Part shown: positions 1,498 through 19,653 of the stretch, one piece after another
How positions within the stretch are numbered: the first letter of the stretch is position 1
Layout: each line of letters opens with the position of its first letter
From: Lachnoclostridium sp. An76
Lineage (GTDB): Bacteria; Bacillota; Clostridia; Lachnospirales; Lachnospiraceae
Reading direction: 5' to 3'
Assembly (NCBI RefSeq): GCF_002161355.1
Contig: NZ_NFHL01000002.1
Coordinates: forward strand, 62,001-126,000
DNA length: 64,000 bases
The notes under the pieces: model-generated
Databases searched by the model: none
Seen by the model: the letters and a program-made list of their open reading frames with translations, nothing else
What the model was told of the DNA's origin: nothing
Made by a program: the position numbers and the translations under genes

Positions 1498-1597
1498 CAT
1501 TATTTTTTGGTGATTGTCCGCTTTGTACGCCGATGGCCCCATCCGGGGCGGTTGAGGCGGGTAGATAAGATCACTCCTATTACAATAAATTTGGACA

Positions 1598-1850
1598 GGA
1601 AAGCCGGACAGCCAGTCCGGCTTTCCCTCCATCTCGTGCCTAAGCTACAATGAGAGGAGCAACTGGCTGACCAATCACTCCTTGGGCTTGTATGTCCGTG
1701 TGAAAGACTGTTAGCCATCCTCTCGTTGCAGCGTTCGATTTAAGCAGGTTGAACCACCGGATGTCGGAGAGTTCGTGTCACACAATAGATTGAATCGGCA
1801 GCGAGAAAAGATGGATTCCGGTTGCAGATTCTTTGTATTGGAGGAATGTG
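1598..1850 (+). ncRNA. Candidate IS110 bridge RNA
   Basis: The non-coding left end holds three consecutive structures. First is a perfect 12-bp hairpin (1598-1609 with 1615-1626, loop AGCCA). Second is a long stem (1644-1658 with 1718-1732, one A-C mismatch and one G-U) closing a loop of about 60 nt that contains a further 5-bp pairing, TGGCT 1664-1668 with AGCCA 1713-1717. Third is an 8-bp stem (1736-1743 with 1790-1797) closing a loop of about 46 nt. IS110-group elements encode a bridge RNA in the left end with a 5' stem-loop and two internal loops, one for target and one for donor. The architecture fits. I could not demonstrate guide-to-target pairing, so this remains a structural inference; the 3' limit is approximate. 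Confidence 0.6.
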
Positions 1851-1851
1851 A

Positions 1852-3060
1852 ATGAACTGCGTTGGCATCGATGTTTCCAAGGGTAAGAGCATGATTGCAG
1901 TCATGCGGCCCTTCGGAGAGGTAGTGGTTTCACCCTTTGAAGTACGTCACACCGCCAATGAACTGAGCGAGCTGGCAGGACTGCTCAAAAGCCTGGACGG
2001 CGAGACCCGTGTGGTGATGGAATCCACGGGTAATTACCATGCTCCGGTGGCCTGGCTGCTCCACGACGCGGGCCTTTATGTCTCGGTAGTCAATGCAATG
2101 CTGGTGCATGACTACGGAAACAACAGTTTAAGACGGGCCAAAACCGACAAAAAGGATGCCGTAAAGCTGGCCAACTACGGTCTTGACCACTGGCTCACAT
2201 TGCCGAGATATATCCCGGAGGAGGATACCCGACTCATGCTGAAAATCTGCTACCGGCAGTACCAACAGTATTCCAAAGTTCAGACCATGCTGAAGAATAA
2301 CCTGATCTCCCTGCTGGACACCACCTTCCCAGACGCAAATCGCTTGTTTACCAGTCCGCCCCGCGCCGATGGCAGCGAGAAGTGGGTGGACTTTGTCGCT
2401 ACTTTTTGGCATTGCGAGTGCGTTTGTGGCCGGTCTGAGAAGGCCTTTACTACCCAATACCAGAAGTGGTGCAGAAAGCACGGCTACAATTTCAGCGAGG
2501 ATAAGGCGCTGGATATTTATGCCTCTGCTTGCAGACACTTCGGTGTCATACCGAAAACGGATACGGCAAAACTTTTGGTAGAACAGGCCATTTCTCAACT
2601 CCAGACAACTTCTTCCGCGTTAGCTGCTCTCAAACAGGAGATGCAATCCCTGGCAGCTTCTCTGCCGGAGTATCCTGTAGTGATGGGGATGTTTGGTGTT
2701 GGCCCAACCCTCGGCCCTCAACTCCTGGCTGAAATTGGCGATGTACGCCGTTTTCATTCCAAAAAAGCGTTGGTTGCCTTTGCGGGTATTGACGCCCCGC
2801 CCTACCAATCCGGTCAAATAGATGTCCGTAGCCGTAGCATTTCCAAGCGAGGATCTGCCTCACTGCGCAGGACGCTCTTTCTGGTGATGAGCGTCATCCT
2901 GCAATGTGCTCCAATAGACGAGCCGGTGTACCAGTTCATGGACAAGAAACGCTCTGAAGGCAAGCCATATCGTGTCTACATGATGGCCTCTGCCAACAAG
3001 TTCCTGCGCATCTACTACGCTTCTGTGAAAGCCTACTTGGAATCCCTGGAGCACGACTGA
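1852..3060 (+). CDS. IS110-family transposase (bridge-RNA-type recombinase)
   Basis: The 402-residue product begins NCVGIDVSKGKSMIAVM, the first catalytic Asp of the RuvC-like DEDD domain. The acidic Glu lies in RVVMESTGNYH and further Asp residues in RRAKTDKKDAVKLANY. The C-terminal half carries the Transposase_20 (IS116/IS110/IS902) domain, with the hallmark GVGPTLGPQLLAEIGDVRRFHSKKALVAFAG and the conserved RSRSISKRGSASLRR segment holding the catalytic Ser. Length is typical. The ATG follows GGAGG at 1841-1845. The gene is intact and opposite in direction to the surrounding conjugation genes. IS110 enzymes recombine a circular donor with DNA chosen by an element-encoded RNA. Confidence 0.93.
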   Translation: MNCVGIDVSKGKSMIAVMRPFGEVVVSPFEVRHTANELSELAGLLKSLDGETRVVMESTGNYHAPVAWLLHDAGLYVSVVNAMLVHDYGNNSLRRAKTDKKDAVKLANYGLDHWLTLPRYIPEEDTRLMLKICYRQYQQYSKVQTMLKNNLISLLDTTFPDANRLFTSPPRADGSEKWVDFVATFWHCECVCGRSEKAFTTQYQKWCRKHGYNFSEDKALDIYASACRHFGVIPKTDTAKLLVEQAISQLQTTSSALAALKQEMQSLAASLPEYPVVMGMFGVGPTLGPQLLAEIGDVRRFHSKKALVAFAGIDAPPYQSGQIDVRSRSISKRGSASLRRTLFLVMSVILQCAPIDEPVYQFMDKKRSEGKPYRVYMMASANKFLRIYYASVKAYLESLEHD

Positions 3061-3063
3061 TTT

Positions 3064-3135
3064 TTACACTCTATACCATCTGGCTGGCCGCCGTTTTAAT
3101 TTTGAGATGCTCAGCGGCTTGATTTTGTATTGCAT
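3064..3135 (-). other. Chimeric mini-ORF created by the IS110 insertion
   Basis: The displaced Maff2 ribosome binding site (GGAGG within 3141-3149) is now seven bases from an ATG at 3133-3135 that reads 23 codons into the IS right end and stops at 3064-3066. The peptide has no recognisable function. It is recorded because it shows where translation initiated by the old Maff2 signal now goes. Confidence 0.5.
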
Positions 3136-3206
3136 TTTTTCGCCTCCCTAAAAATCTGAAATTTCTACTTGACTTTTATTAGCAGGTCTTTCACAGCGGA
3201 ACAGAT

Positions 3207-5042
3207 TTACACGCCCTCTGCGTCTACTTCATACACATCGTAGACCTCGTTGGGCTTGAGCTTGAGCCGGGTGGACAGGAACGCCTCGATGTCAAAGGCG
3301 TTCTTGGGGTCCGCGTCGGCGGTGTACGGGTAATTGGGGTGCTTGGTGATGTCGTACTTGTCCGAGAGGAAAGGCCGCACACCGCGCAGCTGGAGGATAC
3401 ACTTGCCGCCGTCCATGACGGCCAGTTCATCCTGGCTCATAAGCTCTTTGCCGAGCTTTTGGTAGTTAAGAGAATGGGATGTCTCGCGGCCCCGGCTCTC
3501 GCCGGTGTTGTAGGTGTCGATGGTCTCCTTGCCCAGCACGGCGGCCAGCTCCTTGAGGGTTGTCGGCTCTTTGCCGCCCAGGAAGATGGAGGTATCCATG
3601 TTGCCGATGATGGTATCGGCGTTGTCCTTGTAGATAGCTTTGAGCTGGGACTGTGCTTGCAGCACCAGGCAGGCGGAAATCTCACGGCTTCGGATGGTGG
3701 CAACCAGCTTTTCCAGCCGAGGGATCTGTCCAATATTGGCGGCCTCGTCAATGAGGCACCGCACATGGACCGGCAGCCGCCCGCCGTACACATCGTCCGC
3801 TTTTTCGCAGAGCAGATTGAACAGCTGGGTGTAGCACATGGAGATCAGGAAGTTAAAGCTATCGTCCGTGTCGCTCATAATCAAGAACAAGGCGGTTTTC
3901 CGGTCTCCCAGGGTATCCAGCTCCAGCTCGTCGTAGGCCGTGACCTCCCGCAGCTCCGCGATGTCGAACACGGCAAGGCGCGCACCGCAGGAAATCAGGA
4001 TGGATTTTGCGGTTTTGCCCGCAGCCAGCTTGTACTTTTTGTACTGACGGACGGCGAAGTGGTTGGGCTTCTCTGCCTCCAGCGCGTCAAACATCAGGTC
4101 CACGGGGTTCTTGAACTCCTCGTCATCCTCCCGGACCTCCATCGCGTTGATGAACTCGATGAGGGTGGAGAAATTCTGTTCCTCCACCGGGGCCTCGTAG
4201 TGGATATACCCAATGAGGGCGCAGTACAAAAGCGTCTCGGCCTTAACCCAAAAATCGTCCCCGGCCTTGCCCTCGCCCTTGGTGTTGGCGATCAGCGTCG
4301 TGACCAGTTTCAAGATGTCCTTTTCGGAGTGGATGTAGGCAAAGGGATTATAGTGCATGGACTTCTTGAAGTTGATGGTATTGAGGACTTTGATCCGATA
4401 AGGCTCATAGATGTCCTTGCCGTGCTTATCCTTCATGGGCTTGCCGTCCTTGCCCAGCTTGGGTGTGCCGCGCTGAAGCATTTTGCCGCACTCCACCAGG
4501 ATGGTGCCTTTTGGGTCTGTCACCACATAGGAGCTGTGCATCTGCATCAGGTTCGGTTTCAGCCAGAAGCGGGTCTTGCCGGAACCGGAGCCACCGATCA
4601 CCAGCACATTTTTGTTTCTGGCGGTCTTGGGGTCCTTGGGGCGGCTGTTCATGGTCAGGCTCTCGGTTTTAGTCAGAATCACATTGTTCTGGAACACCGG
4701 GTCGATGTAGGGTGCGATGTCCTCATGGGTGCCCCAGCGGGCGCTGCCATACTCCATACCGTGCCGGTACTTCTTGGCGTTCTTGCTTTTGAGATACACG
4801 GCCAATCGCAGGCCAGCGCCGCAGCACAGCCCCACCAGCAGGTCCAAAGGGTGCAGGCTGGGCCACCAGCTGGCCAGCGCCACCGGCAGCGTGGAGAAGA
4901 ACGAAAGCATTTTTGCCGAAGCGTCCGCACCCACGGCCATCCGCCATCCTTCACCGAAGTTGGTTGCGAACAGCCCCATCAGGATATAGGGCATATTCAG
5001 CAAAAGGAGCTTTTTGATGTCAAGTTGCTTTTTCATCTTCAT
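3207..5042 (-). CDS. VirD4-like coupling protein (CD1115 type)
   Basis: The 611-residue product is the type IV coupling ATPase that brings relaxase-bound DNA to the transfer channel. Two N-terminal membrane segments (about 12-30 and 45-85) precede a cytosolic ATPase domain with Walker A GGSGSGKT at 150-157 and a Walker B region in VRCLIDEAANIG. The SYVVTDPKGTILVE and QSQLKAIYKDNADTIIGN segments are typical of TraG/VirD4 proteins. Its start overlaps the pcfB stop by four bases (ATGA), indicating translational coupling. Order and sequence match the CD1115 family of CTn elements. It is intact. The next gene of the operon (Maff2) is cut off from it by the IS110 insertion. Confidence 0.94.
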   Translation of the reverse strand: MKMKKQLDIKKLLLLNMPYILMGLFATNFGEGWRMAVGADASAKMLSFFSTLPVALASWWPSLHPLDLLVGLCCGAGLRLAVYLKSKNAKKYRHGMEYGSARWGTHEDIAPYIDPVFQNNVILTKTESLTMNSRPKDPKTARNKNVLVIGGSGSGKTRFWLKPNLMQMHSSYVVTDPKGTILVECGKMLQRGTPKLGKDGKPMKDKHGKDIYEPYRIKVLNTINFKKSMHYNPFAYIHSEKDILKLVTTLIANTKGEGKAGDDFWVKAETLLYCALIGYIHYEAPVEEQNFSTLIEFINAMEVREDDEEFKNPVDLMFDALEAEKPNHFAVRQYKKYKLAAGKTAKSILISCGARLAVFDIAELREVTAYDELELDTLGDRKTALFLIMSDTDDSFNFLISMCYTQLFNLLCEKADDVYGGRLPVHVRCLIDEAANIGQIPRLEKLVATIRSREISACLVLQAQSQLKAIYKDNADTIIGNMDTSIFLGGKEPTTLKELAAVLGKETIDTYNTGESRGRETSHSLNYQKLGKELMSQDELAVMDGGKCILQLRGVRPFLSDKYDITKHPNYPYTADADPKNAFDIEAFLSTRLKLKPNEVYDVYEVDAEGV

Positions 5043-17949: not shown

Positions 17950-19653
17950 CTATAGCTTCAGGCTCCTGCAGCGGTTAAAGCAGGCGAACATCTCCTGCCG
18001 TCTCGGCCTTGCCATGCAGGCGATGCTCGACGTGCTCTCGCAGAGTGCCGCAAGAGTACCTTTTTCAATCGCCTGCTCCAGCTCCGCCACGATCTGCCGC
18101 AGGTCCTTCCTTCCATCTAGCAGATGCTTCTGCGCATACCGCACGCAGTACCCGAGCGCCGTCACCTGCTCGCTGTCCGTGATCTGCTCTACATACCGCA
18201 GATCGATGGTCTCCCGGTTGATCATCACGCCTTCTTTCCCGAGCGTCTTCATCTTGATCCTGTCATTGCCCCTGAATGCCTTGTCCGGCCGCGGGCAGCG
18301 TCCGAGATCCGGCTTCGCCGCCGGCTCCTCCGGCGCACTGATCATGGGGAAGTTCTCCGCCTCTTTTTTCGCGTAAGTCGTAATGTCCTTCGGCACATAC
18401 CGGTCCATCTGGATGATCGTGTCCGCGATGTGGAAATAAGATCCCGAGCTGCCGGCCACGATCACCGTGGAAATGCCATAGTTCTCATACAGTTCCCGGA
18501 TCCGGTCGATGAACGGCGTGATCGGCTCCATATCCCGGTGGATCACCCGCTGCATAAGCTCATCCCGAATCATAAAGTTGGTGGCGCTCGTATCCTCATC
18601 GATCAGCAGGAGGGACGCCCCGGCCTCGATGCTCTCCACCACATTGGCCGCCTGGGACGTGCTGCCGCTGGCGTCCTCCGTACAGAATTTCACCGTATCC
18701 TTCCCGTTCGGCAGATCATTGATGAACATGGAAATGTCGGTCTTCCGGATGCTGCGCCCGTCCTCGGCCCGGATCTTCATGGCCGTATCGTCCGTGATCA
18801 CATACTCCCGGCCGTCCCCGGCGATATGGTCGTACACGCCCAGTTCCAGCGCTTTAAGAAGGGTGGATTTCCCGTGGTATCCGCCGCCCACGATCAGGGT
18901 GATCCCCCTGCGGATGCCCATGCCGGTGATCTTCCCCCGGTGGGGCAGGTCCAGTTCTACTTTCAGTTCATCGGGCGACCGGAACACCACGCCGCCTTTC
19001 ATGGGGCGTGCGGAAATGCCGGACTCCCGGGGCAGGGTGCTCCCGTCCGCCACGAACGCGCACAGCCCGAGCTTCGGCAGCATTTCCCGGATGAAATGCT
19101 GATCCTCCGCCAGGTCAACGATGGCGCGCAGCCGCTTCGCGTCCATATTTTTATAGAACAGCGCGTGCTTCACGCATTCCGGTACGAAGTCAAAGAGGAT
19201 CTTCTCCAGCTCCCGCGCATTGATAGTCCGCCCGTTGGCCGGGAATCCGATCTCCATGCGGAGCACCACATCCCCGCTCTTTGGATCGATCCGGCAGGCC
19301 GTCCGCTCCAGCACTTCCTGCCCGCAGCGGCTCACCGAGATAAGTCCGCTCTTCCCGGATCCTTTCGCCTTAAATGCGAACTGCTCCGCCCGTCTGCCGA
19401 ACTGCCTCGTCAGCTCATCCTGCAGAGCAATCCTCTGATGGTCTCCTCCATAAAGTTCCTGCGGGAATCCCGCGGTGCGCCCGGCCACGCGTACGCTCAC
19501 CTTTGATGGTGAAGCGAAAGGGTCTCCCTGCACATGGTCGATAGACAATATATAGCCTGGGAACTGGTAAGCGCCCTTTGTATCTTTATATGCCGGATAC
19601 CCCCGGTGGTCGATCCTGTTTAACAGGCTTCTAAGTTCTGTTGATGACTGCAT
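17950..19653 (-). CDS. ABC_ATPase-family (PF09818-type) P-loop protein
   Basis: The 567-residue product contains ITLIVGGGYHGKSTLLKALELGVYDHIAGDGRE, the distinctive P-loop of this family (GGGYHGKST). The paired segment STSQAANVVESIEAGASLLLIDEDTSATNFMIRD provides signature and Walker B motifs, with STVIVAGSSGSYFHIADTIIQMD as the switch His region. The family is wide in bacteria, with trypanosome relatives that bind RNA, but its bacterial function is not established. It has no transporter partner. It is complete. The C-terminal 70 residues after PEEPAAKPDLGRCP look like a separate helical extension. Confidence 0.82.
   Translation of the reverse strand: MQSSTELRSLLNRIDHRGYPAYKDTKGAYQFPGYILSIDHVQGDPFASPSKVSVRVAGRTAGFPQELYGGDHQRIALQDELTRQFGRRAEQFAFKAKGSGKSGLISVSRCGQEVLERTACRIDPKSGDVVLRMEIGFPANGRTINARELEKILFDFVPECVKHALFYKNMDAKRLRAIVDLAEDQHFIREMLPKLGLCAFVADGSTLPRESGISARPMKGGVVFRSPDELKVELDLPHRGKITGMGIRRGITLIVGGGYHGKSTLLKALELGVYDHIAGDGREYVITDDTAMKIRAEDGRSIRKTDISMFINDLPNGKDTVKFCTEDASGSTSQAANVVESIEAGASLLLIDEDTSATNFMIRDELMQRVIHRDMEPITPFIDRIRELYENYGISTVIVAGSSGSYFHIADTIIQMDRYVPKDITTYAKKEAENFPMISAPEEPAAKPDLGRCPRPDKAFRGNDRIKMKTLGKEGVMINRETIDLRYVEQITDSEQVTALGYCVRYAQKHLLDGRKDLRQIVAELEQAIEKGTLAALCESTSSIACMARPRRQEMFACFNRCRSLKL

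Follow-up and report, generated by a model that had tools for sequence, protein, structure and literature searches.

A predicted bridge RNA with target and donor guides and a putative Shine-Dalgarno aim in an IS110-group element of Lachnoclostridium sp. An76

The window analysed here, a 64,000-nucleotide stretch of Lachnoclostridium sp. An76 (contig NZ_NFHL01000002.1, positions 62,001 to 126,000 of the forward strand), contains an IS110-group element that sits among conjugation genes. One of these, on the reverse strand at 3207-5042, codes for a VirD4-like protein of the CD1115 family, on account of which an integrative conjugative element is the probable host. As the element is present in a single copy in this genome, insertions could not be compared within it. 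The element and its gene comprise:

1577..3189, forward strand: IS110-group element with a CT core at both ends (1577-1578 and 3188-3189); ends common to relatives in different flanks, and eight empty sites
1840..1844, forward strand: Shine-Dalgarno motif GGAGG of the transposase gene, read from the sequence
1852..3060, forward strand: IS110 recombinase of 402 amino acids (PF01548, E 1.5e-32; PF02371, E 2.4e-19; NF033542, 244 bits against a cut-off of 140)

The limits of the element, 1577-1578 to 3188-3189, follow from the empty sites together with the ends common to its relatives. The latter share a left end reading CTATTACAATAAATTT and a right end reading TTATTAGCAGGT, then CT, and 8 of the 397 same-family genomes searched contain the host element with an intact insertion site, allowing at most two mismatches to the flanks once joined. 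In all eight the flanks meet at 1578/3188 with a two-base overlap equal to CT. An exact search of viral contigs found no empty site. The non-coding ends measure 275 bases from core to start codon on the left and 127 bases from stop codon to core on the right. An earlier note on this DNA put the right end at about 3132, whereas the true one, at 3187-3189, lies some 55 bases further on, and because of this misplacement it missed the guides described below. The nine-base match TTTGTATTG that it reported between 1832-1840 and 3124-3132 is indeed present, but the second copy is not at the right end; as a candidate guide the match was dropped, since neither copy lies at an element end.

The reading frame of the recombinase is intact and includes both the IS110 DEDD domain and the C-terminal domain with a conserved serine. 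Across both domains the protein matches two solved structures, those of IS621 (8wt6, E 8e-19) and ISCro4 (9t56, E 5e-17), and the IS621 alignment places D7, E57, D99, D102 and S320 on conserved positions, by our own count and with an assumed offset to the PDB numbering. The NCBIfam model NF033542 labels it an RNA-guided transposase. A TIGR-Tas assignment was rejected, as the match to the nuclease model (36 bits) stays below its cut-off of 100, and so was the IS1111 group, which would have its bridge RNA at the right end, whereas guides and structure lie here in the left end. A search of plasmid records returned three distant matches, 60-80% identical, which were not used further.

Between the left end and the gene, the non-coding sequence folds into three successive stem-loops:

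1593..1800, forward strand: predicted bridge RNA, its start inferred from the -10 element and its end from the stem of the donor loop (fold z -4.8, matched by 0 of 200 shuffles)
1598..1626, forward strand: 5' stem-loop, perfect over 12 bp (1598-1609/1615-1626), with 12 of 12 pairs changed on both sides
1644..1732, forward strand: target-binding stem-loop, with outer (1644-1658/1718-1732), inner (1664-1671/1710-1717) and apical (1684-1687/1694-1697) stems
1736..1797, forward strand: donor-binding stem-loop, with a stem (1736-1743/1790-1797) and an apical stem (1751-1754/1771-1774), pairing conserved

The hairpin and the two closing stems had been proposed in the earlier note, and all their pairings lie where it put them: the outer target stem holds 13 Watson-Crick pairs, one G-U pair and one A-C mismatch, and the donor stem has 8 bp including one G-U. 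Covariation among relatives, which it had named as a check, is found in the 5' stem-loop and in the target stem-loop (6 of 26 counted pairs changed on both sides), but not in the donor stem (0 of 7 counted pairs; 1 of 4 in its apical stem). Furthermore, the donor stem comes out of RNAalifold in a different register and is missing from the lowest-energy fold of the window's own copy. From 1593 to 1851 the sequence folds at -103.3 kcal/mol (z -5.3), with none of 200 shuffles as good. Taken over 50 distinct relatives, the 49-pair structure is paired in 96.0% of cells, 19 pairs having changed on both sides against a shuffled mean of 10.0; none of 500 shuffles was as high on any of five measures, and versions slid along the alignment pair in 32-47%. 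Rfam covariance models gave no match at E up to 1 for 1560-1870, and over the window only a tRNA, elsewhere.

The guide positions within the target loop, and the flanking DNA that they match, are:

1570..1578, forward strand: left target with core, ATCACTC CT, identical to 1674-1682
1674..1682, forward strand: left target guide, ATCACTC CT, recognised by guide-target agreement over relatives' insertions
1699..1706, forward strand: right target guide, TGTGAA AG (TGTGAAAG), complementary to the core and right flank
3188..3195, forward strand: core and right target, CT TTCACA, complementary to 1699-1706

For comparison the best 80 of 126 relatives were kept, giving 79 loci, of which 75 (all but L062, L066, L068 and L079) were analysed with the window. 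Among these 76 loci, five have no usable left end (L018, L045, L054, L058, L063) and one has too short a flank (L073); the guide-target set holds 70 loci with 56 distinct combinations of guide and site, the right side being absent in 8, so that 48 remain. Right ends were set by direct reading in L051, L052, L071, L075, L077, L078 and L080 and set to missing in L024, L026, L037, L045, L058 and L063, and L076, whose core was probably placed one base off, which lowers its score, was kept as it is. The right end of L035 runs into what we take to be sequencing-adapter sequence, and this contig end is probably an assembly artefact.

Within this set of the best 80 of 126 relatives, left guides match their own targets at 5.86 of 7 positions against 3.49 (sd 0.15) after shuffling (56 combinations), and right guides at 4.69 of 6 against 2.51 (sd 0.15; 48 sites), 0 of 10,000 shuffles being as high in either case. 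Seven left matches occur in 19 of the 56 sites, six in 22, five in 9 and four or fewer in 6. By position, -7 to -1 match in 71-93% and +1 to +5 in 77-100%, whereas -14 to -8 (12-45%) are at the level of all pairings and +6 reaches only 31%; longer guides were thus discarded, as matching beyond 7 left and 5 right positions is at the all-pairings level. Core included, 9 left and 7 right positions of the target-loop pairing stand above that level. With one site per distinct guide, again from the best 80 of 126 relatives, 34 left groups score 5.68 against 3.15 of 7 and 29 right groups 4.28 against 1.87 of 5, with no shuffle as high in any of 200 draws of 500. The earlier finding of no convincing guide match is overturned: once the ends are corrected, both target guides match the flanks, and the comparison of loops with target and donor flanks that the same note had recommended yields matches over many sites. 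L076 carries a TT core at both ends, in its target guides and in its right donor guide.

A more distant set points the same way. A search of 391 genomes of the class for relatives at E up to 1e-60 was positive in 15, counting the window's own, and of the 20 places outside the window 16 were analysed (all but L095, L102, L103 and L107). These elements, whose recombinases are 42-65% identical, share with their left flank a longest run in the target loop of 8.38 bases against 4.52 when shuffled (13 elements), and with their right flank one of 5.33 against 3.47 (12 elements), 0 of 10,000 shuffles being as high on either side. Anchors and guide strands were chosen by hand, L104, L108 and L109 were removed because they repeat the L090 element, and L106 lacks a right side. 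The four copies L090, L104, L108 and L109, all in one genome, have a 7-9-base guide run in common with their left flanks; in L090 and L108 a single additional base separates the guide match from the left end.

Several insertions deserve mention in their own right. L019 and L032, from different species, have the same left flank and different left guides. In L049, after the transposase gene (end at 4203), the right end of a first IS110 element breaks off at TTTGGGA|CT, interrupted there by the left end of a second. The target loop of this second element is TTTGGGG|CT, agreeing at 6 of 7 positions plus core, and its right guide fits the CTTGACT of relatives' right ends; the far side lies beyond the contig end. 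Judging by these matches, the guide of the second element seems to be aimed at a sibling element. The right ends of L024 and L026 are likewise cut by another IS110-like left end, and the right flank of L056 directly abuts one, so that these elements apparently insert into or next to one another. A distant clade (L096-L101, L105, L106) often has the core TT, and in some of its copies the guides match the end of a hairpin with a run of T, like intrinsic terminators. Local folds of the left flank are strong in L096 (z -4.2), L099 (z -7.8) and L106 (z -5.3) and weaker in L098 (z -2.6), with none that is strong in the 45 bases tested of L097, L100, L101 and L105.

The second loop carries sequences that correspond to the element's own ends, and the ends themselves carry the two halves of a putative promoter:

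1743..1749, forward strand: left donor guide AGCAGGT, same as the right end at 3181-3187
1784..1788, forward strand: right donor guide AATAG, complementary to the left end at 1577-1581, with a possible second block GT at 1777-1778
3169..3174, forward strand: -35 half TTGACT of a putative promoter created by joining of the ends, with 17 bp between it and 1581-1586 over the junction
1581..1586, forward strand: -10 half TACAAT of the same putative junction promoter

The right donor guide exactly complements the first five bases of the left end in all 50 distinct rows, and does so through four states of that end (CTATT in 42, CTGTT in 6, CTACT in 1 and TTGCT in 1). The block at 1777-1778 tracks positions 6-7 of the left end, AC going with GT in 46 of 46 rows and AT with AT in 4 of 4; that it is a real part of the guide is only suggestive, because its four AT rows (L069, L071, L072, L073) look like one clade. 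The left donor guide AGCAGGT and the right end are identical in 35 of 43 rows; in L076 both read GGCAGGT, and in the other 7 they differ. When the ends are joined, TTGAC(T/A), a 17-bp spacer and a -10 element appear in 40 of the 43 distinct rows with a right end. At the level of sequence, what can be regarded as established are the element ends, the agreement of guides with targets at many sites, the covariation of guides with donor ends, most of the stems and the promoter halves.

We conclude that the stretch from 1593 to about 1800 almost certainly encodes a bridge RNA of the IS110 group, with guides for both target and donor; the joined ends would supply its promoter, and in many relatives the guides appear to aim at Shine-Dalgarno motifs. 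The earlier note had read a bridge RNA here, and this reading gains support from stem covariation, from the agreement of guides with targets and with donor ends, and from the empty sites. In the mechanism that we envisage, the element would leave as a circle, and its joined ends would form a promoter driving the bridge RNA; the first loop would pair with both sides of the target DNA and the second with the two ends of the element itself, upon which the recombinase would join target and element ends at the CT core. Transcription of the RNA, its binding by the recombinase, catalysis and activity of the promoter are all steps that we infer. Where the left guide complements a Shine-Dalgarno motif, as here and in many relatives, insertion would tend to occur directly ahead of a ribosome-binding site, with the element pointing away from the gene and the motif left intact.

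The Shine-Dalgarno aim is best seen among the best 80 of 126 relatives, where CTCCT, the complement of the motif, occurs in 20 of 34 distinct left guides. In 34 of 51 distinct left flanks from this set (54 were available, 3 being too short), a start codon lies 6-18 bases from the core on the opposite strand, followed by an open reading frame of at least 60 codons, ATG being the start codon in 27 of the 34; the background, at 18,800 random positions in the same flanks, is 15.9% (6.4% with ATG). The other 17 flanks do not fit the pattern. As the window's own site has a Shine-Dalgarno-like motif but no start codon with a reading frame behind it, the statement rests on the relatives, whose landing place in about two thirds of cases looks, from its sequence, like a ribosome-binding site before a gene. 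When the same 7-mer occurs elsewhere in the flanks, such a reading frame comes after it in 10 of 18 instances, 5 of them starting with ATG, and the start-codon context thus follows from the motif; since the core is kept at both ends, the motif stays beside its gene. A limited search of the open-licence literature did not find Shine-Dalgarno targeting by covarying guides.

A further set of pairings connects the base of the target loop with the leader of the transposase gene:

1659..1825, forward strand: long-range helices with the transposase leader (1659-1666/1818-1825, 1715-1718/1811-1814, 1721-1729/1798-1806)

In the RNAalifold structure of the 50-row alignment, these leader pairings replace the outer target stem. 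Their positions pair in 95.6% of cells, 5 of 21 pairs have changed on both sides against 2.0 when shuffled (6 of 500 as high), and 24 cells have changed against 6.1 (0 of 500). The first helix occurs with 16 distinct arm pairs, 118 of 128 positions being paired against 102.9 after shuffling (1 of 10,000 as high), and in L071 GCAACTGG/CCGGTTGC is swapped for CGAAATGG/CCATTTCG. Duplex energies, computed for 25 representatives below 85% identity (3 of 63 sequences having been skipped by the search pattern), are -10.07 against -7.87 kcal/mol shuffled for the first helix (0 of 10,000) and -16.06 against -14.83 for the third (49 of 10,000). A control pairing of the 5' arm with the leader also gave 0 of 10,000, which indicates that relatedness inflates these shuffles; part of the control signal may be real pairing, seen by eye in L097-L101. 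In the window's own copy, forcing the target and donor stems gives -96.3 kcal/mol, forcing the leader helices -95.9, and forcing the leader helices together with the donor stem -92.3; the unconstrained fold at -103.3 keeps the target stem without the donor stem. Thus the bridge fold is favoured and the leader fold is not preferred by the isolated sequence, and near-equality of the two fold energies once the donor stem is required is not borne out.

On the evidence of the alignment, the leader fold is one that evolution supports and that competes with the bridge fold. Likely, the helices represent a strand exchange between guide and leader, although the first of them might instead be a pseudoknot on the folded guide. 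A dual use can be imagined, in which the bridge RNA homes on ribosome-binding sites, leaving them intact, and is also half of an RNA switch, the leader invading the base of the target loop so that the transcript serves either as guide or as translatable messenger; this combined proposal we take seriously but on balance doubt. Helices of this kind at the base of a target loop were not found in a limited search of the open-licence literature.

Could the recombinase protein itself recognise the target, the loop resembling it merely through a common Shine-Dalgarno-like sequence? The prevalence of CTCCT among the left guides means that the match is indeed partly common to many elements. However, shuffling the targets keeps this common part and the left score nevertheless drops from 5.86 to 3.49; positions -7 to -5, which lie apart from the motif, agree in 71-79% against 30-47% over all pairings; the guide of L044, GTCAAGACT, does not resemble the motif, yet fits its target at 7 of 7 positions plus core; and the right guide has a match of its own, all of which renders recognition by protein very improbable. 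We give as little credence to the view that the structure is merely a regulatory leader of the transposase gene without any guide, as for ISPpu9: it does lie directly upstream of that gene, the leader helices covary, and the IS110 family offers a precedent (in the sections of PMC8450116 drawn on here), but such a leader would not predict loops that match the flanks and ends of each element.

Another explanation, compatible with the guide-bearing bridge RNA that we prefer, holds that the RNA is a true one by descent and that the present copy survives as a relic, transported only as part of the conjugative element. The single copy in its genome fits this, as do the 11 loci, window included, that have the same guide and site among the best 80 of 126 relatives, as expected if the host element had spread. 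Against it, the reading frame is intact, the catalytic residues align, and all four guides still match their partners; a relic is therefore unlikely, with more in its favour than the two preceding explanations.

This predicted bridge-RNA family is a well-resolved one in gut Clostridia, and its 34 distinct natural left guides with their targets (best 80 of 126 relatives) come close to a natural guide-swap experiment. Aiming at Shine-Dalgarno motifs suggests how a guided element may spread with little damage, by using a motif that recurs before genes and is kept intact. The leader helices, in turn, provide a testable proposal for how one transcript might be shared between guide and messenger.

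Among the closest known systems, mycobacterial IS900, also of the IS110 family, reportedly targets translation initiation signals, going by the title of Doran's 1997 work alone. ISPpu9, as far as the consulted parts of PMC8450116 describe it, is an IS110-family element with a folded transposase leader affecting translation, which there involves an antisense RNA and a folded ribosome-binding site instead of the likely strand exchange with a bridge-RNA stem. The seekRNAs of ISEc21 and IS1111, in the portions of PMC11187229 used, are guide RNAs that in the IS110 type come, as here, from the non-coding end upstream of the transposase gene, but they have other targets and, at 70-100 nt, are shorter than the RNA predicted here. 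For IS621, bridge RNAs of such a layout were described, and they were predicted in 85.7% of IS110-group elements (PMC11208160, in part). The excerpts of PMC11208160 and PMC11208158 considered agree with the present element in the IS110 group, a left-end RNA with a 5' stem-loop followed by target and donor loops, a left guide for the bottom and a right guide for the top strand, a CT core throughout, and a joined-end promoter (the last also in PMC11208160), and the possible second donor block here resembles the split right donor guide of IS621 in the material at hand. They differ in that the natural targets named there for the family are REP elements, whereas many here are Shine-Dalgarno-like, the words ribosome, Shine, terminator and start codon being absent from the main text of PMC11208160, and in the helices between target-loop base and leader, a feature not met in those excerpts. 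The kind of bridge RNA is thus already known, and the element in the window is a further case of it.
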